Source: Clostridiales bacterium
GTDB taxonomy: Bacteria; Bacillota; Clostridia; Christensenellales; JAISNN01
Length of the DNA: 35,380 bases
Direction of reading: 5' to 3'
NCBI GenBank assembly: GCA_031275485.1
Contig: JAISOS010000057.1
Span: forward strand, 1-35,380
Made by a program: the position numbers and the translations under genes. The notes below the pieces were generated by a model. That model saw only the letters and a program-made list of their open reading frames with translations, searched no databases and was not told where the DNA came from. Positions 5,251 through 23,198 of the stretch are shown in pieces. Position 1 is the first letter of the stretch. Each line of letters opens with the position of its first letter.

Positions 5251-5471
5251 GTTATTCAGTTATTTTAACGCAAGGTTTTTTATTTTTTTACGATGTGTAG
5301 GCGCTATCGCAATAAGGCGGATTTTAAACGATTTTTATGTCCGGCAAGGCGTTTTTTGCAAGGCGCGGCGTTGCTGCGATAGTGAAAATAATACCGCTGA
5401 ACGTGAAAAGTAGCAAAATACGACTATTTCGCATAGCGTCAACACGCCATAGTTTTATAAAGAATACATGG

Positions 5472-10960: not shown

Positions 10961-11220
10961 TGACGGACGAAGAAAGAAAAGAAGCGATTGAACGGCTTGA
11001 AAAGCTCGACGAGGGAGGCTTGCAAGGAGCGGAACTTGAAGCAAGATTGGAACGTATGGACGCTAACAAAAAGCAAGCGGAGTTCGCCGCAAAAAGAAAT
11101 CGCATAATGACCGTAGGCGAACTGATGACAAACCTTGCAAAACTACCGAAAGATACCGCAGTTTGTTTAGCGAGTGATGAGGAAGGTAATAGTTACAGCC
11201 TCGTACAAGGCGCTACTTGA
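10960..11220 (+). CDS. Small acidic phage-type protein, probably 3'-truncated
   Basis: An 86-residue frame whose ATG overlaps the preceding stop as TAATG, with AAAGGAG upstream. The first half is a charged helix (ERKEAIERLEKLDEGG) resembling a coiled coil. The second half (IMTVGELMTNLAKLPKDTAV, then DEEGNSYSLVQGA) looks like the conserved block of small phage proteins with an MTVGEL-LPxD-V pattern. The protein ends abruptly in LVQGAT, and at that very point (about 11205-11215) another protein's sequence starts in a different frame. The natural C-terminus was therefore probably lost in a deletion. Confidence 0.55.
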   Translation: MTDEERKEAIERLEKLDEGGLQGAELEARLERMDANKKQAEFAAKRNRIMTVGELMTNLAKLPKDTAVCLASDEEGNSYSLVQGAT

Positions 11221-11446
11221 AAGTATAGTATGGTGTCTGACGGGAGAAACGATACGCGGAACGCGGGATGTGAAAAACTATTACACCGACGGTGATTGTA
11301 CCGTAAGCATCGAGTTTGAAAAGGACGGAAAAATTTATGAGATAACCCGAAACAAGGGAAAAAGCCTTGCGCTGACAGTCGACGGAAAAGACTGTTCGGG
11401 AAAAGAGACGGAGCAGACGAGGGCAGTGGTACGCATTCGGCAGTAA
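11205..11446 (+). pseudogene. AAA/SMC-type ATPase fragment without its Walker A motif
   Basis: The frame reads LLESIVWCLTGETIRGTRD, then VKNYYTDGDCTVSIEFEKDG, then YEITRNKGKSLALTVDG. LLE-I-WCLTG-T-RG directly follows the GxGKS of Rad50/SbcC-like or phage recombination ATPases, and the beta-rich segment after it also fits. Here the GKS is missing: the sequence upstream belongs to the preceding small gene. This is the scar of a deletion that fused two genes out of frame. There is no start signal of its own, so it is a remnant. Confidence 0.5.
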
Positions 11447-12105: not shown

Positions 12106-12429
12106 ATATTTTTTTATAATTTTAAAAATATCGGTCAATTTGGAAGTCTTGAAGTTCTTTGCCGTTGTAATTTAGATTAAATAATATTAGCTCTAAAAAG
12201 CTCGATATCATGAAGTTTTCCGCACATTCGGCAAACGCAAATTACCTTGCCGCCTTTCACCGTCGATCACAATTTGCTCTTTGATTGCGCGTCGTTTTTT
12301 GTTTTCCGGAGCAGTTATTTGCGTTGTTTTTTTTGAGGGCGTTCGGTTTCTTGTTATACCGCGTCCAAAATTCTTACGTTCCAAAGAACTTAGCCGTAAC
12401 ATTTAGTCCGAACGGAATCGTAAAAAGCG

Positions 12430-12490
12430 TTAAAATTCTTTGAAAAAATGAGCGAAGAAAGCCTTTTGTCCGCAAAAGATTTCCCCGAGT
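12430..12490. repeat. Dispersed element, copy 1
   Basis: TTAAAATTCTTTGAAAAA, then GAGCGAAG, then CTTTTGTCCGCAAAAGATTT and CCCC. It aligns loosely with the copies at 13590, 15218 and 19901 on this strand and 18468 and 22895 on the other. Confidence 0.4.
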
Positions 12491-12709
12491 ATAATTTTCA
12501 AAAAAGCTTGAAATAAAATATTTATATGAAAACTGAATAATATCCCTTGAATACGGCATACAATTATACAGGTAAAATTCACGTCGATCGGCGGATTGTC
12601 CTGCTGAAATACGGGCTTTCGTTATCGGTGGGCGGGGCTATCGACGCAAGCTGTTTTTGCGCGCAATCGGTGGGTTGTCTAAAACGTGCCGCGGGGGAAT
12701 GTTTTCGTA

Positions 12710-13459
12710 ATGTGGTCAACGGCAATAAGTATAGATAAAAGGTACGGAAGAGAGTTCGCGTATATCCTCGGCGAGGTCAAAAAAAACAAATATTCGTCCT
12801 GCGCCGTGGAAGAGAGCCGTTTTAGGTACTTTGTGCAAGTCGTAAGCGAGGAAAAATACCGCGCCGCCGTTGTCCGAGACGTTATTAGAATAGTCGCCGA
12901 CGTGATTTTGATATATTTCAAGGCTCGGTATTTGAAAAAACGGCTGACGGACGGACGCGGCGGGGATGATGCGGGCACGGTGGGCGACGCTATGGCGATT
13001 CTGATTTCCTCGCTTATATATTTCGACGTGGGTATAGAGAGCCGTATACTGAACGGTATAATAACGGATTCCGACGAATATTCGGTGGACGGTCTTTTTA
13101 TGTTCAGAATGGGCGAACTTATTTACAACTGGGACGAGCTTTGCGCTCTGAGCGCGGGGCTTTTATCGTTGAATCCGTCCGATTCGGACATATTGAATCT
13201 AACCTCGTTTTTAATAGACGCGTCGAAAGGTAAAAAAAACAAAATTACCGTGTCCGGCGCGGATGAAATTTCGGTTTTCAACGTTACGACGAACGAGAAA
13301 ATTTATATTCACGACATTTTTTCGGACGAAAAACAGAACCTCACGAACGCCATTATCAGCTGTTATCCGGAGGAAATTTGTTTGAAAAATAAGAATCTGT
13401 CGGAACGCGTATTAAACGTATTGAAAAAAATCGTGAAAATTCAAGCTGCCGAGATATAG
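12710..13459 (+). CDS. Unknown protein, weakly like sporulation protein YtxC
   Basis: A 249-residue protein if started at the ATG at 12710; a GTG at 12686 would add eight residues. A G-rich CGGGGGA site precedes the ATG at a rather long distance. The sequence is mixed alpha/beta, with a charged helical start (KRYGREFAYILGEVKKNKYS), a middle rich in small hydrophobics and a C-terminal part with KIYIHDIF, then an AIISCYPEEICLKNKNLS segment. The spacing of KIxIHD followed by a short I-C-like strand is faintly reminiscent of the C-terminus of YtxC proteins, but cysteines and overall similarity are too weak for assignment. There is no signal peptide or membrane segment. It stands alone between two spacers, next to manA. 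Confidence 0.6.
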   Translation: MWSTAISIDKRYGREFAYILGEVKKNKYSSCAVEESRFRYFVQVVSEEKYRAAVVRDVIRIVADVILIYFKARYLKKRLTDGRGGDDAGTVGDAMAILISSLIYFDVGIESRILNGIITDSDEYSVDGLFMFRMGELIYNWDELCALSAGLLSLNPSDSDILNLTSFLIDASKGKKNKITVSGADEISVFNVTTNEKIYIHDIFSDEKQNLTNAIISCYPEEICLKNKNLSERVLNVLKKIVKIQAAEI

Positions 13460-13589
13460 CCCGGTCGTAAACAGGAATGGTCGCGACGGGGGCGACGGGG
13501 GTATTATTACGCGGCGTTCTCTATGCGAAAAAGTAACCCGCGAATTTCGCTAAAAGGTTTCGTCTCGGCGTTCGGTTTGCATAGAATTA

Positions 13590-13660
13590 TTAAAATATTA
13601 AAGTTTTTGGGAAAGGGACGCGGGCGGAGAGGTCTTTTTGTCAAAAAAGGTTTTTTCCTA
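13590..13660. repeat. Dispersed element, copy 2
   Basis: ATTAAAGTTTTTGGGAAAGG, then GACGCGGGCGG, then TCTTTTTGTCAAAAAAGG and TTTTTTCC. It is the clearest copy together with the one at 15218-15290. Confidence 0.55.
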
Positions 13661-13691
13661 AAATATTTTTTGCTTTTCCCCTTTAAAAGCC

Positions 13692-13720
13692 TTGAAATAA
13701 AATCAATTATGTTGTATAAT
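13692..13720 (+). promoter_or_regulatory. manA promoter, leaderless arrangement
   Basis: TTGAAA (13692-13697), 17 bp, TATAAT (13715-13720). Only 7 nt separate the -10 box from the ATG and no Shine-Dalgarno site is present, so the mRNA should begin at or next to the start codon. Confidence 0.75.
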
Positions 13721-13727
13721 AAAACAA

Positions 13728-14696
13728 ATGCAAAAAAAATATCCTTTGTTACTCGCACCCGCATATAGAGATTATCTATGGGGCGGAACAAAGCTCGAAA
13801 AAAAATGGGGCAAAACTCCGCCGGAGCCGGGTGCGGTTATCGCGGAAACTTGGGAGCTTTCTCTGCGTGAGGGCGCTCTGTGCGGAATAAAAAACGGGCG
13901 GTTCGCGGGACTTACGCTTCTCGAGGTTTTGGAATTCAATCCCGGTTTCGCCGGCAAAAAATGTCTTTCTTTTTCCAAATTTCCGTTGCTTATAAAGCTC
14001 ATAGATTCCGCCGCGAATCTCTCCGTTCAGGTTCACCCCTCGGACGCATACGCTCTGGTTAACGAGAAAAGCTACGGTAAATCCGAGGTCTGGTTTATTT
14101 TAGAGGCGGAGGAGAACGCGGGCGTCTTTTTCGGCTTTAAGAGGGATTCCTCCGAGGCGGAGGTCAGAGACAGAATAAACGACGGCTCGCTTACGGAGAT
14201 ACTGAATTTTACGAAAGTCAAAGCCGGCGACGTCTTTATGATAGACGCGGGGACGGTTCACGCTGTGGGCGGCGGCATAACTCTCGCCGAAATTCAGCAG
14301 AATTCCGACCTTACGTACCGTGTGTACGATTTCGGCAGAACGGATAAAAACGGCAAACCGCGCGAATTGCATATAGAAAAAGCTTTAACGGCGATGAATT
14401 TTCGAGCGCATACGGGGGAGGCTTCGGTCTATCCTTACGTGGATTACGCGGAATTTCAAAAGCGTTTGATTGCCGACAATAAATACTTCTTTTCGGAATT
14501 TTACAGGTTGGACGGCGCGTGTCCGCTCTGTAACGAGGATTGCTTTACCGTACTGACGCTGACCGCCGAACGCGCCGATATTCGTTACGGAGGCGAGAGC
14601 CTTTCCGTTGTTAAAGGCGATACCGTTTTTATCCCCGCAGGGTTGGAGATTTCGGCGAGTGGAAAAGCGGAATTCATCGCGACTACGCTAAGGTAA
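13728..14696 (+). CDS. manA: Mannose-6-phosphate isomerase, class I
   Basis: A zinc enzyme of the cytoplasm that interconverts mannose 6-phosphate and fructose 6-phosphate. The 322-residue length is that of the short Firmicute type. The cupin zinc ligands are in place: Q101 and H103 in VQVHPSD, E120 in GKSEVWF and H178 in DAGTVHAVGGG, followed by the family block LAEIQQNSDLTYRVYDFGR. The start is fixed by the first ATG after the promoter: the -10 box ends 7 nt before it and there is no ribosome-binding site, implying a leaderless transcript. A ROK glucokinase lies downstream on the same strand, separated by 635 bp, consistent with hexose use but not with one operon. Confidence 0.95.
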   Translation: MQKKYPLLLAPAYRDYLWGGTKLEKKWGKTPPEPGAVIAETWELSLREGALCGIKNGRFAGLTLLEVLEFNPGFAGKKCLSFSKFPLLIKLIDSAANLSVQVHPSDAYALVNEKSYGKSEVWFILEAEENAGVFFGFKRDSSEAEVRDRINDGSLTEILNFTKVKAGDVFMIDAGTVHAVGGGITLAEIQQNSDLTYRVYDFGRTDKNGKPRELHIEKALTAMNFRAHTGEASVYPYVDYAEFQKRLIADNKYFFSEFYRLDGACPLCNEDCFTVLTLTAERADIRYGGESLSVVKGDTVFIPAGLEISASGKAEFIATTLR

Positions 14697-15331
14697 AGCG
14701 CGGTTCTTTGAAAATTTTTGCGCGCGTAAAGTATTTTCTTGGGGAAAATTTATCCGCGCGTCCTTTTTCTAAAAAACTCTTGTGATTTATGCGGTCGGTT
14801 GGAAATTTCGGTAGATTTTCGGAGAGAGTTGCCGGAATAGCTTCTACTGCGGCGCGGTTATTTCGAGGGTATTTTTTTGTTCGGTTGGAAAATTCGGAGG
14901 TTTTAGGGAATAAAACAATCTAAAACCGTCCTTTGCTCATATAGGTGCGGTAAACCGTGAGCGGAAAACCTTCGCCGGTAAGTATATAATGCCGCTTTAC
15001 AGCGTCGTTTTTTGCCCGCAAGTATGTTTTACTGCGCTCCGTAACGTTCTTTTTTAATATTTGACAGTATTTTTCTCGTCCGTTTGTACGGGACTTATGA
15101 TTCCCTGTAACGCTTTTTTTGTGTGTACCGGGTACAGTCACGGATTATGGCCGCTTTGCGTAAGCCGACGCGGTTTGCGGTGTTTTACGGAATTCTTTGC
15201 GCGCTCGCTTGGAATAGTATTAAAAAATACTTAAGTTTTTGGGAAAGAGTTGCGGGGAAGTCGCTTTTGTGAAAAAAGATTTTTTCCGCTCATAGATCAA
15301 TTTAATCCCGTTTTAAGAAAAAAGGAGTTTT
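14697..15331. other. Gene-poor spacer between manA and glucokinase
   Basis: About 635 bp. A minus-strand frame of 73 codons (14920-15141, GTG start, no ribosome-binding site) has a plausible composition but matches nothing I know. A possible further degenerate copy of the dispersed element lies near 14730-14785 and a clear one at 15218-15290. Confidence 0.4.
15218..15290. repeat. Dispersed element, copy 3
   Basis: ACTTAAGTTTTTGGGAAAGA, then GCGGGGAAGTCG, then CTTTTGTGAAAAAAG and ATTTTTTCCGC. TTAAGTTTTTGGGAAAG here is nearly identical to the TTAAAGTTTTTGGGAAAG of copy 2. Confidence 0.55.
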
Positions 15332-16282
15332 ATGTACATAATCGGCGTGGATATCGGCGGTATGAGCGTTAAAGGCGGCATAGTCGGCGAGGACGGCAAA
15401 ATTTTGTGCAAAGCCGGCGTCGAGACCAAGACCGCGAGTGAGCCGGACGTGATTATCGCCGATACGGTTTCGCTTATAAACAATCTTATGCAAAAAGCCC
15501 GCTTAAAAATCGGCGGTATAAAAGGCTTGGGGTTGGGTATTCCCGGCGCGATAGATTCTAAGCGCGGCGTGATCGTATATTCCAACAATATCAACTTTAT
15601 AAACGTTCCGATTGTCGAAAGACTGCGCGGATATTTCGGCGAGTTGCCCGTGTTTATCGGCAACGACGCAAACGCCGCCGCGCTCGGAGAAATGCGTTTC
15701 GGCGCGGCGAGAAAATACTTGAACGCCGTGTTCGTCACGCTCGGCACGGGTGTGGGTACGGGCATCGTCATAGACGGCAAGCTGTTCGAGGGCGTAAGCT
15801 CGGCGGGCGCGGAGGGCGGGCATACCGTCATTGTCGCGGACGGCGAACCATGCTCATGCGGCAGGCGCGGCTGTTTCGAGGCATATGCCTCCGCGACCGC
15901 TCTTGTGAGGCAGACTAAGGCGGCGATGGAGAAACATCCCGACAGCCTTATGAGCGTAATAGCGCGCGAAAAGGGACGAGTCAACGGCAGGACCGCATTT
16001 TTAGCGGCGGCAAGGGGCGACGTTGCGGCGCAGGAGGTGATAAACAGATATATCGGCTATGTGGGAGAAGGAATCGTCAACCTCGCTAATATATTCCGTC
16101 CGGAAGTAATACTGATAGGCGGGGGCGTTTCCAACGAAGGCGACGCGCTGATACTGCCGCTTCAAAAAATTATGGACGAACGCTGTTACGGCATACATAA
16201 CGGAAATCCGCGCGTGCTTGTGGAAAAGGCGTCATTGACGAACGACGCGGGAATTTTGGGCGCGGCGTCGCTAGCGTTGTAA
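15332..16282 (+). CDS. ROK-family glucokinase
   Basis: Phosphorylates glucose with ATP in the cytoplasm. The 316-residue protein begins IGVDIGGMSVKGG (phosphate-binding DxGG at 7-10). It has the catalytic Asp in GNDANAAALGE (D112), GTGVGTGIVIDG, the sugar-contacting EGGH (161-164), and the ROK zinc signature GEPCSCGRRGCFEAYAS with three Cys plus H164. The C-terminal IFRPEVILIGGGVS is also standard. AAGGAG lies a few bases before the ATG. Length and motifs are typical of Firmicute GlcK; other ROK sugar kinases cannot be fully excluded, but the set of motifs favours glucose. Confidence 0.93.
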   Translation: MYIIGVDIGGMSVKGGIVGEDGKILCKAGVETKTASEPDVIIADTVSLINNLMQKARLKIGGIKGLGLGIPGAIDSKRGVIVYSNNINFINVPIVERLRGYFGELPVFIGNDANAAALGEMRFGAARKYLNAVFVTLGTGVGTGIVIDGKLFEGVSSAGAEGGHTVIVADGEPCSCGRRGCFEAYASATALVRQTKAAMEKHPDSLMSVIAREKGRVNGRTAFLAAARGDVAAQEVINRYIGYVGEGIVNLANIFRPEVILIGGGVSNEGDALILPLQKIMDERCYGIHNGNPRVLVEKASLTNDAGILGAASLAL

Positions 16283-16748
16283 TTTATTTTATGAGCCGAT
16301 TTAAAAATTCGATTTATATCCGTATTATATTACGTTATATTTACCGTATTGCGTCGCGGATATAAAAAGATACGCGGAAATTTATGCGTTTCATAAAAAT
16401 CGCGCGGGAAAATGCGCATTAGAAAGTGTGCGTTTTAATAAAAAACGTATTAAAAAGCATACGTATTTAAAAAAATATACGCATGGAAAAGCGCGTAAAA
16501 TATTACGCGTTTTTGATAAAAACGAACGCGTAAAAATATACGCGTAAAAACGTGTTTAATTTGAAATTTATAACCTTTTTGCGGGTTTTATACAAATATC
16601 TACTATATTTCGGAAATCGGTTGCGGAGCTGTTTTTTGCGTCGTCGGGTTTTTTTACGCTTTTAATCCGATTCCGAAAGGTTGCGTTTTGTGTCTTGACG
16701 CTTAAAGGGCGTTTTTAATGGGAAATAACAATTAAATTAAGGAGTTTT
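16283..16748. other. Spacer and probable leader before the RNase J gene
   Basis: 466 bp without a gene. The middle (16411-16550) is a run of short stem-loops. No well-spaced promoter was found after them, so they may lie in the untranslated leader. Confidence 0.5.
16411..16550. repeat. Cluster of four short stem-loops with ACGCGT/GCGTAA arms
   Basis: Successive arms are AATGCGCA/TGTGCGTT, ACGTAT/ATACGT (16445-16464), CGCGTAA/TTACGCG (16492-16509) and ACGCGTA/TACGCGT (16526-16545), separated by A-rich linkers. The sequence GCGTAAAA recurs three times. Confidence 0.65.
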
Positions 16749-18419
16749 ATGGCAAAATCATTCAAAATCGTATTCCTCGGCGGCATAGGGGAAATAGGAA
16801 AAAATATGACCGCTATCGAATACAGCAACGACATAATAGTCGTGGACGCGGGGATGTCCTTTCCGGGATACAATATGCCCGGCATCGACTACATCATCCC
16901 CGACACGGGCTACCTGAAATCAAATAAAGACCGAATTCGCGGCATCGTGCTGACGCACGGTCACGAGGATCACATCGGCTCGCTTCCTTATCTCTGCAAG
17001 GATATCCCCGGATTGCCCGTTTTCGGCACGCGGTTGACGGTAGCTCTTTGCCAGCACAAATTCAGAGAGAATAAGATAGCCGACAATAATCTGAACGTCG
17101 TTTCGGAGGGCGGAGCGGTTAACCTCGGCTTGTTCCGAATCGAATTTATCAAGGCGACGCACTCGATCGCGGGGGCGTGCCATCTCGCGATAGACACCCC
17201 TATCGGTATGATCTTCCATACGGGCGATTATAAGTTTGACTACACGCCGATCGACGGCAAAATGACGGATCTCGGCAGGCTCGCGGACCTCGGAAACCGC
17301 GGCGTCACCTTAATGCTCGGCGAGAGCACTAACGTCGAGAAGGAAGGACACTCGATGAGTGAAAAAAACGTAGGACAGTCCTTGGACTATATCTTTTCCA
17401 AAAATACTGACAGACGGCTTGTAATCGCGACGTTCTCGTCAAATATTTACAGAATTCAGCAGATTATAGACCTTGCTGTCAAACACGACCGTAAGGTCGC
17501 CTTTTCGGGCAGGAGCATGATAAATATCGCGGAGATGGCTTTTAAAATCGGAGAGTTGCGCTTCGAGCATACGACTATCGTCGATATAGACAAAATTAAA
17601 CGCTATCCGCACGAAAAAACCGTCGTCATCTGTACGGGCGGGCAAGGCGAGCCGATGAGCGCGCTATCGAGAATGTCCACGGGCGACTTCGACAAGCTGA
17701 CTATCGGCGCAAAGGATACCGTCGTGCTCTCCTCGTCTCCGATTCCAGGCAATGAAAAAATGGTGCTGTCCGTCGTCAATAACCTTTACAGACTTGGCGC
17801 GGACGTCATATACGAGGCGTTGCACGAGGTTCACGCGTCGGGACACGCTTATACCGAGGAGTTGAAGCTGATGCTCTCCCTCATTAAACCGAAATTTTTT
17901 ATTCCCGTTCACGGCGAATACCGTCATTTGAAAAAACACAGCTTTATGGCTCAAGCTCTCGGCATGAGCAAGGAAAATATATTCGTACCCGAAGCGGGCT
18001 CAACCGCCATAGTTCAGAGAAACGGGATAAAGGCGGGACCGAAAGTGCAGGCGGGGAATATTTACGTGGACGGGTACGCCACGGGAGATATGGACAGCCT
18101 CGTGCTTAAAGACAGACAGCACTTGGCGGAGGACGGATTTATTCTCGTCATTTTGAATCTTCTCGCGCTGACGCCCGGTAACGAGGAGAGCTTTTATTCC
18201 AATGTAGACGTAATCACGAGAGGTTTCCACAGTACGGACGGCTTTACGCCCGAAATCAGGGAAATCGTTAAAAATGCTTTGGCGCAGTTTGATTTCGATA
18301 AGTGCGACGACCCGGCCGTAATTAAGGCTATCGTCAAAAAAACATTGCGAAAGCATATTTTCAATAAGTATAAACAAAATCCGATGATTATGCCGATAGT
18401 TTTGGACAGCTCGCTTTGA
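16749..18419 (+). CDS. rnj: Ribonuclease J
   Basis: A metallo-beta-lactamase/beta-CASP nuclease with 5'-to-3' exo- and endonuclease activity that matures and degrades RNA in Firmicutes. The 556 residues match RNase J in length. Features in order: FLGGIGEIGKNM, the zinc-binding HGHEDH (70-75), ATHSIAGACHLAI and HTGDYKFD, the beta-CASP stretch with RMSTGD and VVLSSSPIPGNE, HASGHA, and KPKFFIPVHGEYRHL. The C-terminal domain follows with VVDxTxRGF-like DVITRGFH. AAGGAG lies seven bases before the ATG. Only one rnj gene is seen here; whether it corresponds to J1 or J2 cannot be decided. Its spacer carries a stem-loop cluster that might serve autoregulation. Confidence 0.95.
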   Translation: MAKSFKIVFLGGIGEIGKNMTAIEYSNDIIVVDAGMSFPGYNMPGIDYIIPDTGYLKSNKDRIRGIVLTHGHEDHIGSLPYLCKDIPGLPVFGTRLTVALCQHKFRENKIADNNLNVVSEGGAVNLGLFRIEFIKATHSIAGACHLAIDTPIGMIFHTGDYKFDYTPIDGKMTDLGRLADLGNRGVTLMLGESTNVEKEGHSMSEKNVGQSLDYIFSKNTDRRLVIATFSSNIYRIQQIIDLAVKHDRKVAFSGRSMINIAEMAFKIGELRFEHTTIVDIDKIKRYPHEKTVVICTGGQGEPMSALSRMSTGDFDKLTIGAKDTVVLSSSPIPGNEKMVLSVVNNLYRLGADVIYEALHEVHASGHAYTEELKLMLSLIKPKFFIPVHGEYRHLKKHSFMAQALGMSKENIFVPEAGSTAIVQRNGIKAGPKVQAGNIYVDGYATGDMDSLVLKDRQHLAEDGFILVILNLLALTPGNEESFYSNVDVITRGFHSTDGFTPEIREIVKNALAQFDFDKCDDPAVIKAIVKKTLRKHIFNKYKQNPMIMPIVLDSSL

Positions 18420-18467
18420 GCGAAGATTCAGGGAAGAGGGATTTGCGCGGAGAGACTTTTTTAAAAA

Positions 18468-18545
18468 ATTATACGGGGATGGGAACCTTTTGTATAAAAA
18501 AATGTTCCCACGCTCCCATTTTCAAAAAATCTCAATACTTTTATA
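18468..18545 (-). repeat. Dispersed element, copy 4 (inverted)
   Basis: On the minus strand: TATTGAGATTTTTTGAAAAT, then GGGAGCGTGGGAAC, then TTTATACAAAAGGTTCCC. GGGAAC and GTTCCC here can form a hairpin. Confidence 0.45.
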
Positions 18546-18573
18546 AGTTTTACTGCGAATATATCCCTGCCGT

Positions 18574-18705
18574 TTATGTCAGGCGTCCCGTCGAGCCGTC
18601 ACTCGATAGCGTCGCGCACGGGGGGGGGCTACCCGCAAATACTGTAATGCGAACTCTTTCTTTTTGCTCCGTCTCGCGTAGCTTATCTTTAACGAGGTTT
18701 TCCAT
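18574..18705 (-). pseudogene. Possible nucleotidyltransferase (YcgL-like) N-terminal scrap
   Basis: On the minus strand an ATG at 18705 opens MENLVKDKLRETEQKERVRI, then TVFAGS, and then runs into a nine-C tract and short nonsense. The pattern of a helix ending in E--E-VRI-A-GS is how DNA-polymerase-beta-like nucleotidyltransferases (SGSRAWG, then SPDSDYD) begin. The catalytic Asp residues are missing, so this would be a decayed 5' end. The similarity is short and the call tentative. Confidence 0.3.
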
Positions 18706-18815
18706 AATCTCGATATTTTTCCTTTCGCGGCTCTTATTTTGCCGGCCGGCAAGCGTTGCGGAATATGCTATCAATAAAATTTTATAAAAGCGCGGGTGTT
18801 ATGAAACTGATAGAG

Positions 18816-18844
18816 TTGTCTATATAAAAACTTTCTGATATAAT
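18816..18844 (+). promoter_or_regulatory. Candidate promoter
   Basis: TTGTCT, 17 bp, TATAAT. The first annotated start downstream is at 19008, about 160 bp away. Confidence 0.5.
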
Positions 18845-19007
18845 ATAAGCGCGAGAACTGCAAAGACAACGGAAGGAGGACGCCGTCGGGAAATGCGGAG
18901 ACGCAACCAAGCAAAAGAACTAATCTTACGGGAACGGCATAAATATCCTTGCGGGCAAAGGGTTTTCCGCGCATAAATCAGTTCTGTCAAAAAATAAAAG
19001 CATTATT

Positions 19008-19900
19008 ATGAGGATAATATCGAATTTCAAGGATTGTTACGACTATGTCGGACACAATAGCGGTGAAAACGGCGATACCGGCTACAGGGAAAAGATTTAC
19101 GTCAGAAACGCCGCGCTAAAGACTGCCGCGTACGCGCTTGAAGAAATCTGTGAAGACCGGCTTGGTACGGACTGGAGCGGCGGCTGGGGGCGCGGTCTTT
19201 ATCTCAAACAACGGTACGTTTCAAAATAGTGGACGGAAAACAAGCGTGCGCTCGGTCTGTCCGACTGTCCCGCTATACGTTCGGGCTGTATTTTCTTATG
19301 CGGAAAGGCGTATCCTTTTCTGTTTTTGAGGGATACGGCAAAAAAATTCTCACAGCCGGAAAAAGCCTCCGCTTAAAGCCGTCCGAGTATTACAATGCGC
19401 ACATTAAAGAAAGCATCGAAAACAAGCAAATAAGGAGAGCTTGGGAGAAAGGAAAAGCGAATGAGAATACTTACAATTTTTTTAAAACGTATTTTTCCGT
19501 TGAGGAATTTCGTGGCGACATAAGCGAGGCTGAACCGACCCGTATACGCCAGCGGTATTACGATGGGGGGATATTCCGCGATGCAAAAGGATTTTTTGAG
19601 TTTTACACGGGGAAGGATTTTACGCCCCTGCACCTGCGGTTGGATTGTCCGCTGACGCTGTTTGTCAAAAAGGAGGCGTGGCGCACCGGACAAGAAACCG
19701 AGTACGAGTTTATGCTCAATCAGATGCTTTCCGAATTTGATTTTATGCGAATCGTCGGTGCGGAAACGCTGTTTCAAGAATTGGAATTCTTGGGCGGCGT
19801 GCTGGTAAAAGACGAAATGCCGTTTTCGCCGCAGTCGGATTTTGACAAACTGACCGCGCACGGTTTCGACCCGAAAAGTTCTTTTAGAAAAATGAATTAG
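19008..19900 (+). pseudogene. Conserved protein of unknown function, frameshifted
   Basis: The beginning (MRIISNFKDCYDYVG) and the end (EFDFMRIVGAETLFQELEFL, then GGVLV, then HGFDPKSSFRK) are those of a widespread uncharacterised bacterial protein that starts MRIISxFxDYYD and ends with a YTAFQEI-LG / KGFDxxSFRK pattern. The middle breaks: the first frame stops at 19229, a second reads through CIFLCGKAYPFLFLRDTAKK (near 19288-19350, matching the family's GFCGKLYPF block) in a third frame, and the last frame resumes by 19375. At least two indels are therefore needed. No ribosome-binding site precedes 19008. Either a pseudogene or a poorly assembled stretch. Confidence 0.55.
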
Positions 19901-19970
19901 TTTTTTTTCTTAAAAAAGATTGTACGCGGGAGACTTTTTGTTCACACAAAGATTTCGCGCGATCAAAAAG
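19901..19970. repeat. Dispersed element, copy 5
   Basis: TTTTTTTTCTTAAAAAAG, then GTACGCGGGAGA, then CTTTTTGTTCACACAAAG and ATTTCGCGC. It lies directly after the frameshifted gene and before der. Confidence 0.4.
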
Positions 19971-20034
19971 CCTCCGAATAAAAAATTCACACCGTATCAA
20001 AGCCGAATAAGCCGGCAAGAAGGAGAAATTTCGT

Positions 20035-21366
20035 ATGTCGAAACCGTTAGTCGCCGTAATCGGCAGACCGAATGTGGGAAAATCCACGCTGTTCAACCGA
20101 ATCGCGGGCAGGCGCATATCCATAGTCGACGATCGTCCGGGCGTTACACGGGACAGGCTTTACGCCGACGCGGAATGGCGCGGGTATAATTTTACCATGA
20201 TAGACACGGGCGGCTTGGAAGTTAAATCCGACGACGAAATGTGGGGGCATATACGCCGTCAGGTGGAATTCGCCGCCGCGCGCGCCGACTTGATTCTCTT
20301 TATCGCGGACGGAAAGAACGGCTTGCTTCCCGAGGATTACGAGGTTGCGGATTTTATAAGAAAGACGAAAAAGCCGTGTATTTTGACCGTCAATAAGATT
20401 GACAATTTGGAGAACGAAAACGCCGTCTACGATTTTTACGCACTGGGATTGGGAACGCCGCTTTCGATTTCCGCAGAGCACGGAAAGGGAATAGGCGATT
20501 TGCTTGACGAAATAACCGCGTTATTAAAGGAAAAAATTCCGAGTGAGGAGGTTTCCGACCGTTTAAAAATCGCCGTCATAGGGCGGCCGAATGTCGGCAA
20601 AAGCTCTATCATAAACCGCCTTTTAAGCTTTGAGCGCGTTATAGTAAGCGATATCGCGGGTACGACGCGGGACGCTGTCGACACGGATTTTGAATACGGG
20701 GGAGTGAAATGCACGCTTACGGACACGGCGGGAATCCGCAAAAAGAAAAACGTGGACGAGGATGTAGAGTACTATAGCGTTTTGAGATCGCTTGAAGCGG
20801 TTCGCCGTTCGGATGCCGCGCTCATAATCGTTGACGCGTCGGAAGATTTGACGGAACAAGACATCCGCTTAGCGGGATATGCGCACGAGCACGGCAAGCC
20901 GTCCGTTATCGTTATGAATAAGTGGGACAGGGTGGAAAAGGATACTTATACGGTAAATAAATTCAATCTTATGCTTGGCGAGGAATTGAAATTTATGGAC
21001 TACTTCCTGCCCGTATACGTTTCCGCGCTCAACGGAAAAAGAACGCAAAACATAATGCGCGAAGTTTTGCGCGTTTTTGAAAATTCCGAAAGACGAATCG
21101 GTACGGGAGTTCTGAACGATATAATACGCGAGGCGGTTTCCGTCAACGAACCGCCGTCGAAAAACGGCAGGAGATTAAAAATATACTTCGCGACGGAGGC
21201 GTCGGTTTCACCGCCGACTTTTGTGTTTTTTGTCAACGACGCGGAGCTTGTACATTTTTCTTATAAACGTTATTTGGAAAACAGTATAAGAAAGGCGTCG
21301 GATTTTTCGGGAACGCCGATTCGCCTCGAATTCAAAGCGAAAAACGAGGACTCGCCGTATGATTGA
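20035..21366 (+). CDS. der: Ribosome-assembly GTPase Der (EngA)
   Basis: Essential double GTPase that assists 50S subunit assembly. The 443 residues contain two G domains and a C-terminal KH-like domain. The first P-loop is GRPNVGKS (10-17) with DTGGL and NKID. The second is GRPNVGKS from about residue 183, with the switch-region GTTRDAVD, DTAGIRKK and NKWD. The end has EPPSKNGRRLKIYFATEASV, then PPTFVFFVNDAELVHFSYKR, as in the family. AAGAAGGAGA lies 9-10 nt before the ATG at 20035. The neighbouring plsY/gpsA genes common in other Firmicutes are absent. Confidence 0.97.
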   Translation: MSKPLVAVIGRPNVGKSTLFNRIAGRRISIVDDRPGVTRDRLYADAEWRGYNFTMIDTGGLEVKSDDEMWGHIRRQVEFAAARADLILFIADGKNGLLPEDYEVADFIRKTKKPCILTVNKIDNLENENAVYDFYALGLGTPLSISAEHGKGIGDLLDEITALLKEKIPSEEVSDRLKIAVIGRPNVGKSSIINRLLSFERVIVSDIAGTTRDAVDTDFEYGGVKCTLTDTAGIRKKKNVDEDVEYYSVLRSLEAVRRSDAALIIVDASEDLTEQDIRLAGYAHEHGKPSVIVMNKWDRVEKDTYTVNKFNLMLGEELKFMDYFLPVYVSALNGKRTQNIMREVLRVFENSERRIGTGVLNDIIREAVSVNEPPSKNGRRLKIYFATEASVSPPTFVFFVNDAELVHFSYKRYLENSIRKASDFSGTPIRLEFKAKNEDSPYD

Positions 21367-21717
21367 TTTTTAATACGGTTACGGACTTATCGGAAAATTT
21401 TGAGCGGATCTAATTTAGGCGAAAATCAGGGTTCGCCGCGTTTATGAGGAAAAGAGGATGCTCGGAATATATAAACGGATTATGTATTATCGCCGGCGCA
21501 ATACATAGATTTAAGCGCTTTTAAACGCCGTAGATTTAATACTTAAATAAGTCCGGCGGACCTTAAACATTTTTAAGCCATAATATATAAATGCGTTACG
21601 TATTACCGCTCTCGTGGTACTTAAACGGATTATGTATTCTCTTAAACGCGGCGAACGGCGATATCTAATTCGTTCATCGTTGCGGGAAAAACAATTGAAA
21701 AAGGACGGTAAAATATT
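21367..21717. other. Repeat-bearing spacer between der and thiI
   Basis: 351 bp without a gene. A 17-bp direct repeat occurs at 21472 and 21622, and inverted ATGTATT/AATACAT arms lie at about 21482-21507. Several TAGATTTAA and TTAAACG words recur. Confidence 0.5.
21472..21638. repeat. 17-bp direct repeat, 150 bp apart
   Basis: TAAACGGATTATGTATT occurs at 21472-21488 and again at 21622-21638. The period of 150 bp could reflect a degenerate tandem duplication, since other short words between them also recur. Confidence 0.6.
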
Positions 21718-22878
21718 TTGGCGGATAATTGCATATTGATAAGGTACGGCGAAATTTTTTTGAAGGGCGGCAACAGGTCTTTTTTTGAAAGCCTGCTTAA
21801 AAAGAATATAAAAGAGGCTTTGAACGGCTTGAAGTTTGAGCTTGGCTTGTCGCGGGCGCGTTATTATGTGAGCGGTTACGGCACGGACGACGAAAACGAA
21901 ATTTTGAACCGCTTGAAGAGAGTATTCGGCATACATTCTTTGAGCGTGTGCGGAAAAATAGAAACGGATTTGGAAAAAATAAGCGCGTTGCTGTGCGAGC
22001 GGTTCGATAAAAGCGGCAGATTCCGCGTTTCGGTCAACCGCGCCGACAATAAAATCAAAAAAAGCTCTACGGAAATCGCGGGCTATCTAGGCGCGGAGCT
22101 TTTAAAGGCGCGGGGCGATTCGATCTCCGTCGATTTGAAAAATTTCGACTATGAGATAAACGCGGATATTCGCGAAAACGGATATACCTATCTCTTTTAC
22201 GAAAAAATACCGGGTGCGGGAGGACTGCCCGTCGGTAGCTCGGGAAACGGTCTGTTGTTGTTGTCGGGCGGCATCGACAGTCCGGTAGCGGGATATATGG
22301 CGTTAAGGCGCGGCATGCGCGTGCATGCCGCGCATTTTTTCAGCTTTCCTTACACAAGCGTTCAAGCGAAGGAAAAGGCGGCGGATTTGGCGAAAATTTT
22401 GCGTTCCTACGCCGCCGAGCCGACGCTGTTTTTCATTATGTTTACGGGTATTCAGGAGGCGATTTACGAGAAATGCCCGAACGAATATTTGATTACTATT
22501 ATGCGCCGTATGATGGTGCGCATCGCGGACAGGCTTTGCGCGGAACACGGCTTCGACGCTATTATAACCGGCGAAAATTTAGGACAGGTGGCTAGTCAGA
22601 CAATCGAGAGTCTGACCTCGACGGGCGCGGTTACGGATAAGCCGATTTTGCGTCCGCTTATTTGCTTTGATAAGTCGGAGATTATAGCGGCGGCAAAAAA
22701 AATCGGCACTTACGACACAAGCGTTTTGCCGTTCGAGGATTGTTGTACGGTATTTTTGCCAAAAAATCCTATCATACGTCCGCGTTTGAAAGCGGTTGAG
22801 GAATTGGAAAAGGCTTTGAACGTGAACGAGCTTGTCGAGCAAGCCGTTTCGGAAATGACGGAGGTCGTGAAAATATAA
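21718..22878 (+). CDS. thiI: tRNA 4-thiouridine / thiamine sulfurtransferase ThiI
   Basis: Adenylates U8 of tRNA for thiolation and can feed thiazole synthesis. The 386 residues comprise an N-terminal ferredoxin-like part with RYGEIFLKGGNR, a THUMP domain and a PP-loop pyrophosphatase domain with LSGGIDSPVAGY (SGGxDS at 183-188), ITGENLGQVASQTIESL and FEDCCTVFLPKNP. There is no rhodanese extension, as usual in Firmicutes. The start codon is TTG with AAGGAC upstream at a rather long spacing; no better start exists in frame. The cysteine desulfurase gene that often precedes thiI is not here. Confidence 0.95.
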   Translation: MADNCILIRYGEIFLKGGNRSFFESLLKKNIKEALNGLKFELGLSRARYYVSGYGTDDENEILNRLKRVFGIHSLSVCGKIETDLEKISALLCERFDKSGRFRVSVNRADNKIKKSSTEIAGYLGAELLKARGDSISVDLKNFDYEINADIRENGYTYLFYEKIPGAGGLPVGSSGNGLLLLSGGIDSPVAGYMALRRGMRVHAAHFFSFPYTSVQAKEKAADLAKILRSYAAEPTLFFIMFTGIQEAIYEKCPNEYLITIMRRMMVRIADRLCAEHGFDAIITGENLGQVASQTIESLTSTGAVTDKPILRPLICFDKSEIIAAAKKIGTYDTSVLPFEDCCTVFLPKNPIIRPRLKAVEELEKALNVNELVEQAVSEMTEVVKI

Positions 22879-23198
22879 CGGCGGTATGCAGGCTTGGGAG
22901 ATTTCACGCGGTGGAAAACTTTTTGTGAAGAAAAGCCCCCCATGTTCCTTTCTAAAAAGCTTCAACGGGTACATTCATCCTTTTAAAACTGCGCCGCACG
23001 ATAAATATAAGGCGATTTTTATGCGGAACGATGCGTTCGTTGCCCGACGGTGCGTATTCAATGATAACGTCAAAAAATTCGACGATTATTTTTGCGCGGT
23101 TTCAATTCATAACTATTGTATTTTGTAAATTTATCATTGAAACCTTAATACCGACATTGATTGCATGCGGAATTTTTTCGTCTTTGAAGGCGTTCGCG
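22879..23198. other. Spacer between thiI and the converging PBP gene
   Basis: 320 bp without a gene. It holds an inverted copy of the dispersed element (22895-22975) and a 9-bp inverted repeat GGTTTCAAT (23098-23106) / ATTGAAACC (23136-23144) with a 29-nt loop. Confidence 0.5.
22895..22975 (-). repeat. Dispersed element, copy 6 (inverted)
   Basis: On the minus strand: GAAGCTTTTTAGAAAGG, then GGGGGGCTTTTCTTCAC, then AAAAAGTTTTCCACCGCG. Same order of blocks as copies 2 and 3. Confidence 0.4.

Follow-up and report, generated by a model that had tools for sequence, protein, structure and literature searches.

A probable REP-like extragenic palindromic repeat with gene-edge polarity and spacer growth inside operons in Clostridia

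What is the short, degenerate element that recurs in the spacers of the window, by which we mean the whole 35,380-nucleotide stretch of Clostridiales DNA analysed here? The first-pass annotation had counted at least six copies and suggested that the family might be small, mobile and non-autonomous, or else a motif of structured RNA. By eye, most single window copies look weak, and they might be taken for low-complexity or chance resemblance in AT-rich spacers. A genome search seeded with the best window copy, however, yields 30 places at E<=0.001 in the window's own assembly (genome G000; 2.03 Mb, 90.7% complete), and these copies align as a single family. We name this family of hairpin repeats of about 70 to 80 bp R1. 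A covariance model trained on 30 genome-wide copies gives at least 150 matches in the assembly, with E-values down to 1e-20. The enrichment over shuffled spacers that the annotation proposed to look for is clear: a 5'-block matrix at 12 bits or more hits 0/795 shuffled spacer windows against 31 to 32 of 125 real gap ends. Together with the stem covariation described below, these figures refute the chance reading, to which we attach practically no probability. In a 365 kb sample of G000 we counted 115 distinct R1 sites, and a scan with the 5' block only, in a sample of similar size, gave 148. Extrapolation leads to some 600 to 800 copies per genome, a rough figure because the sample consists of 20 kb stretches from contigs picked for already holding hits. 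No Rfam family reaches its gathering score for R1 (sub-threshold chance matches only), and a literature search with the sequence string returned unrelated matches only.

The G000 consensus reads AACrTTAAAGTTTTTTGGAAAGGGGCGCGGGGGAAACCTTTTGTTCACAAAAGGTTTCCCCCGCATAATTTTT. A near-invariant 5' block of about 20 nt (AAGTTTTTTGGAAAGGGGCGC) is followed by a perfect hairpin of 15 to 20 bp and a short AT tail, which in G000 is the AT-rich ATAATTTTT. The conserved block adjoining the stem is AAAGGGGCGC, and conservation ends about 10 nt outside the 5' block. The consensus is species-specific: G004, a second species of the same genus, has its own (ATTACTAAAAGTTTTTGAAAAGGGG...), and the tail of the copies in G088, from another family of the order, is not T-rich.

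High copy numbers are patchily distributed. A loose 5'-block pattern is present in more than three copies in 4 of about 790 genomes, namely G000 (71), G088 (56), G004 (37) and G070 (23). G000 and G004 represent two of the six species of one genus, whereas G088 and G070 are species that share a genus in another family. This pattern search is the better guide to distribution, as the phylum-wide model search scored only 16 candidates per genome and its negatives are weak for that reason. An exact 25-nt match also occurs in an unrelated Clostridia MAG from roe-deer cecum, with two copies on one contig; the viral, phage and plasmid collections hold no R1 match. The near-identical consensus in distant hosts may point to horizontal spread or to strong sequence constraint on the active form.

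In the window, the covariance model finds seven sites at E<1e-4 (Table 1). Five of these are independent of the model, since only the copies at 13594 and 15226 were used in training. All six places named earlier are real, the one at 19901 being weak and better matched on the minus strand than as annotated. A further copy suspected near 14730 is genuine and stronger than that at 22895, whereas near 18425 the model scan gives no separate copy. All window copies lie outside intact genes, as had been stated. The copies at 14712-14786 (left) and 15226-15299 (right) form a '-+' pair around the spacer between manA and the ROK-kinase gene. Two sites match on both strands: the copy at 12426 scores 38.7 bits on the minus strand, as 12442-12515, and the palindrome at 19896-19980, located after an ORF stop (19900) and 54 bp before der, folds well (z -5.7). 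As side observations, two ORFs in R1-flanked regions (19008-19900 and 12710-13459) have no Pfam match, and a run of short palindromes (ACGCGTAAAA...TTTTACGCGT) occupies 16404-16560, between the ROK-kinase and RNase J genes.

Table 1. Positions of R1 copies in the window and of other repeated or mobile sequences in G000. Window gene names (manA, ROK kinase, RNase J, ThiI) were assigned by NCBIfam.
Feature	Position	Strand	Details
R1 copy near palindromic variant	12426..12498	+	41.6 bits, E 1e-8
R1 copy, best of window	13594..13670	+	68.3 bits, used in training; 3' end 57 bp upstream of manA start (13728)
R1 copy, degenerate	14712..14786	-	37.3 bits, E 1.7e-7; 3' end 16 bp after manA stop
R1 copy	15226..15299	+	59.6 bits, used in training; 3' end 32 bp upstream of ROK-kinase start (15332)
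R1 copy	18463..18539	-	45.2 bits, E 1.9e-9; 3' end 44 bp after RNase J stop (18419)
Weak R1-like palindrome	19896..19980	both, - better	26.7 bits on - (E 7e-5), 18.7 on +
R1 copy, degenerate	22898..22969	-	30.9 bits, E 6.2e-6; 3' end 20 bp after ThiI stop (22878)
R2 copies	window 5301-5446; L031:19408-19549, L033:11145-11282, L037:18589-18739, others
IS110-type Transposase_20 fragments, G000	C41:56805, C74:11842, C12:2093, C63:15685; contig ends C7, C45, C91

The compensatory changes that a structured element should display are strongly present. Stem covariation amounts to 0.284 in G000 (0.157 after shuffling) and 0.379 in G004 (0.180 after shuffling), values reached in 0/500 shuffles each. 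Folded as RNA, the R1 consensus reaches -33.6 kcal/mol (z -6.1). Single copies are less uniform: three of the seven in the window (15226, 12426 and 22898) fold no better than shuffles. Among copies found by the 5' block alone, an eroded block goes together with an eroded hairpin (pairs against block score, Spearman 0.36). Block and hairpin decay jointly, which means that the stem is not kept up in each single copy. The covariation would then best be read as subfamily variation among active copies.

R1 is strictly placed relative to genes. Based on genes from a simple in-house caller (70% coding), the 3' or hairpin end is the gene-nearer end in 96 of 110 intergenic copies of G000, at a median distance to the gene of 30 bp against 306 to 311 bp on the side of the 5' block. 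All seven window copies follow this polarity. When two copies on opposite strands share a gap they are always arranged '-+' (16/16) and never '+-', an order that puts both 5' blocks on the inner side, towards the spacer. The 5'-block matrix, which ignores the palindrome, agrees: at tandem gap ends the expected orientation is found in 31/125 cases on the stop side and 32/125 on the start side, the opposite one in 5/125 and 1/125, respectively. The same rule holds in G004 (35/39) and, weakly, in G088 (8/10), and the two copies on the roe-deer MAG contig have their hairpin ends turned towards a stop codon, at distances of 5 and 15 bp. The best-scoring 25 copies are looser (19/25 overall, less strict on the start side); the pattern may thus in part be acquired after insertion. 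R1 also discriminates between gap types, favouring tandem (94 sites in 74 kb) and convergent gaps (11 in 7 kb) and rarely occurring in divergent ones (5 in 14 kb); the block matrix likewise hits 9 of 26 convergent and 1 of 42 divergent ends.

A second pattern emerges from comparison with G003, an R1-poor sister species of the same genus that has almost no R1. The median intergenic gap is 87 bp in G003 (82% coding) against 320 bp in G000 (70%), 361 bp in G004 (67%) and 443 bp in G088 (71%). Where two genes are neighbours in G000 as well as in G003, the R1-bearing gaps are longer in G000 in 10 out of 10 cases (median 324 against 44 bp, Wilcoxon p=0.002), and seven of the ten G003 counterparts measure 60 bp or less; gaps without R1 show a median difference of 5 bp. 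R1 therefore sits in spacers opened inside operons. Even rpsL-rpsG-fusA is split in G000, where the two spacers measure 336 and 562 bp and carry R1. The rpsL-rpsG gap is likewise short, 73 to 127 bp, in the R1-poor G001, G002 and G005, but reaches 249 bp in R1-poor G003 and 260 bp in G004; its single R1 copy is reversed and lies beside a leader that is otherwise retained. R1 is not the sole source of growth, as several enlarged gaps hold no recognisable copy. Alternatively, G003 could in principle have lost spacers instead of G000 gaining them. Neither the polarity nor the tie to spacer growth inside operons had figured in the first-pass annotation.

Other sequences were noticed in these spacers. 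Some enlarged ones (e.g. L032:1767-2527) consist of A-rich, quasi-periodic GTGAAAAACG-like sequence with no R1. A second dispersed family, R2, measures about 140 bp and has inverted ends of about 20 bp (TRTTCGCRTAAACGAAAACG-like); about two dozen copies occur in the sampled spacers, several of them no more than 80 bp away from an R1 copy, on its 5' side. A CAACCTAAA-like motif a short distance upstream of the rpsG ribosome-binding site is conserved in five of six genus members (L122-L125 and L127), L126 reading CAACCCAAA; possibly it is a leader element.

Dispersed and tandem duplicates were seen in G004. An identical R1 copy of about 80 bp occurs there at two sites whose flanks are unrelated to each other. 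On contig L062, local tandem R1 arrays with a period of about 94 bp (11148-11407 and 12449-12707) and a 185-bp tandem duplication of 99% identity (17041-17766) suggest ongoing local duplication. Target duplications, which had been named as a check, gave no signal in 90 R1 copies, which are old and have uncertain exact ends. With one genome per species, gaps were compared between species. The search for a mobiliser led to several rejected candidates. A RAYT route is unsupported because its domain (Y1_Tnp, PF01797) is absent from G000 and from the many-copy G004; it is absent from G070 as well, and G088 has one Y1/RAYT fragment at a contig end with no R1 nearby. IS110-type elements give many Transposase_20 hits in G000 and none in the other carriers or in five other genus members tested, and no R1 lies beside the two copies checked. 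In the search for a parent transposon, the genes enclosed by a '-' and a '+' copy turned out to be housekeeping genes or unknown ones, none of which had a transposase signature by inspection.

Taking these results together, we consider R1 to be probably a lineage-specific, high-copy, REP-like extragenic palindromic repeat, i.e. a mobile but non-autonomous stretch of DNA some 70 to 80 bp in length. This reading draws support from the copy number, the species-specific consensus, the stem covariation, the gap placement and the longer orthologous gaps, and likewise from the patchy distribution, the identical G004 copies, the tandem duplications and the joint erosion. Counted against it are the lack of a linked transposase and of a target-duplication signal, the polarity, and the possible spacer loss in G003. 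Mechanistically, the 5' block would act as a single-stranded tag which, next to a perfect hairpin, may be recognised by a putative trans-acting transposase. Copies pile up in gaps downstream of genes, including gaps nearly closed in the operons of a sister species, and avoid divergent promoter regions, as the counts above show. After insertion they erode, tag and hairpin together, which is seen as a correlation. Further DNA would gather next to the tag, which would leave the hairpin end beside the gene edge and the tag turned to the growing spacer; of this step the polarity is observed directly, and growth on one side is a candidate cause of it.

The strict polarity is not predicted by simple random insertion. 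Candidate explanations are that later insertions prefer the tag side, leading to growth on that side only; that R1 copies are the ends of larger decayed units; or that oriented insertion or selection takes place at transcript borders. A rival reading regards R1 as an RNA element useful to the host, such as a terminator, an mRNA-end hairpin or a processing hairpin. Located beside stops and starts, its hairpin would shield the ends of mRNAs, block transcription that enters genes from the spacer or serve as a target of a double-strand RNase, and the covariation would reflect selection on structure. The strength of that covariation, the near-absence from divergent gaps, the gene-edge placement with fixed polarity and the AT-rich tail of the G000 consensus all fit. 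Nonetheless we hold this unlikely: the stems erode with the 5' block, three window copies fold no better than shuffles, the T-rich tail is missing in G088, and most species of the genus do without high copy number. Moreover, copies occur tens of bases upstream of the starts of essential genes, e.g. at rpsG-fusA, where a terminator would silence the gene. As general roles, terminator and promoter are both disfavoured. The former is contradicted by the non-conserved tail (G088) and the wrong orientation at stop codons. A promoter with the loop as -35 and the tail as -10 can be seen in some window copies, but the tails in G004 and G088 keep no -10-like hexamer. Of the two options raised at the outset, the mobile one, read as a REP-like repeat, is favoured over an RNA motif, given the patchiness, the identical G004 copies, the longer spacers and the joint erosion.

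It might also be argued that larger insertion units, resembling MITEs or cassettes, have R1 copies as their two inverted ends. In these units '-+' pairs would represent the termini, the interior would be decayed or captured cargo, and solo copies would have lost their partner. This accounts directly for the polarity and for the exclusive '-+' pairing, and the paired gap L044:8860-9130 has a G003 counterpart of only 17 bp. We find it a doubtful reading all the same. Interiors (61 to 475 bp) are largely non-homologous to each other, conservation stops just outside the 5' block, and gaps with a solo copy carry no conserved motif at the far end, which speaks against a MITE with a conserved interior in particular. 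In addition, the near-identical dispersed G004 copies have only the element of about 80 bp in common, and rpsL-rpsG holds its single reversed copy beside the retained leader. Very improbable, in our view, is a DNA-level site (a cruciform, or a protein-binding site with a role in e.g. topology or the organisation of the chromosome) that is preserved at the borders of transcription units: the palindrome with its AT-rich centre and the border placement are in line with such a site, but not the patchiness among close relatives or the many rotted copies.

A more far-reaching version of the mobile, REP-like reading starts from the fixed polarity itself. Here the insertion machinery or the cell would read gene edges, and in one sub-lineage R1 would have driven a genome-wide opening of operons; R1 would then either be a REP-like repeat domesticated to mark the borders of transcripts, or be mobile and insert in a set orientation, directed to gene edges. 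We regard this as speculative and rather unlikely. If true, opening driven by R1 would extend even to rpsL-rpsG-fusA, split by hairpin-bearing spacers. Independent of this, R1 offers a natural contrast within one genus, two high-copy species with loose operons against low-copy sisters, with compact operons seen in the one sister examined in depth. With it, one can ask if the loss of gene compactness in bacteria can be driven by small repeats. The same contrast bears on what moves REP-like repeats without RAYT, and on why a repeat is oriented to the gene edge.

Several known systems resemble R1 in part. MITEs with terminal inverted repeats, such as the Correia, RUP and bcr elements, are likewise small, dispersed, intergenic and non-autonomous, whereas R1 has no conserved interior between inverted ends and its 90 copies, old and with uncertain exact ends, give no signal of target duplication. 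Intrinsic terminators share the GC-rich hairpin, the location at gene ends and, in G000, the T-rich tail; R1 differs by its conserved block upstream of the stem, the opposite orientation at stops, a tail that is not T-rich in G088 and copies situated just before starts as well. REPINs are described as short non-autonomous palindromic repeats with a RAYT transposase that persist as a population within the genome (PMC3116915); R1 compares with them as such a population, but its genomes G000 and G004 are without RAYT and its basic unit is not a closely spaced inverted doublet.

The closest likeness is to the REP repeats (GTAG/CGTC, BIMEs). GTAG/CGTC repeats are tagged hairpins with a stem of 5 to 13 bp that favour unidirectional and convergent gaps and rarely occur in divergent ones; they are often found as pairs in opposite orientation, their subfamilies show compensatory stem changes, and the CGTC families lack a dedicated transposase (PMC3733652). 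Similarly, R1 is a short palindrome that occurs outside genes in high copy number and has an unpaired tag on one side, prefers tandem and convergent over divergent gaps, and shows compensatory stem changes and opposite-orientation pairs. In contrast, its stem measures 15 to 20 bp, its tag is a block of about 20 nt rather than GTAG or CGTC, and its pairs occur only with the tags inward, 60 to 475 bp apart. Also different are the strict polarity to the nearest gene edge, the link with spacer growth inside operons, and the host: REP-like repeats have been described mainly from Proteobacteria, and neither Clostridia nor Firmicutes turn up in a text search of the PMC3733652 survey. R1 works like a REP repeat yet lacks the defining tag sequence and stem length of the GTAG/CGTC families, and we do not file it as a member. 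Summarizing, R1 is a REP-like extragenic palindrome with an unusual association with spacer growth inside operons and a polarity towards gene edges that calls for an explanation of its own.
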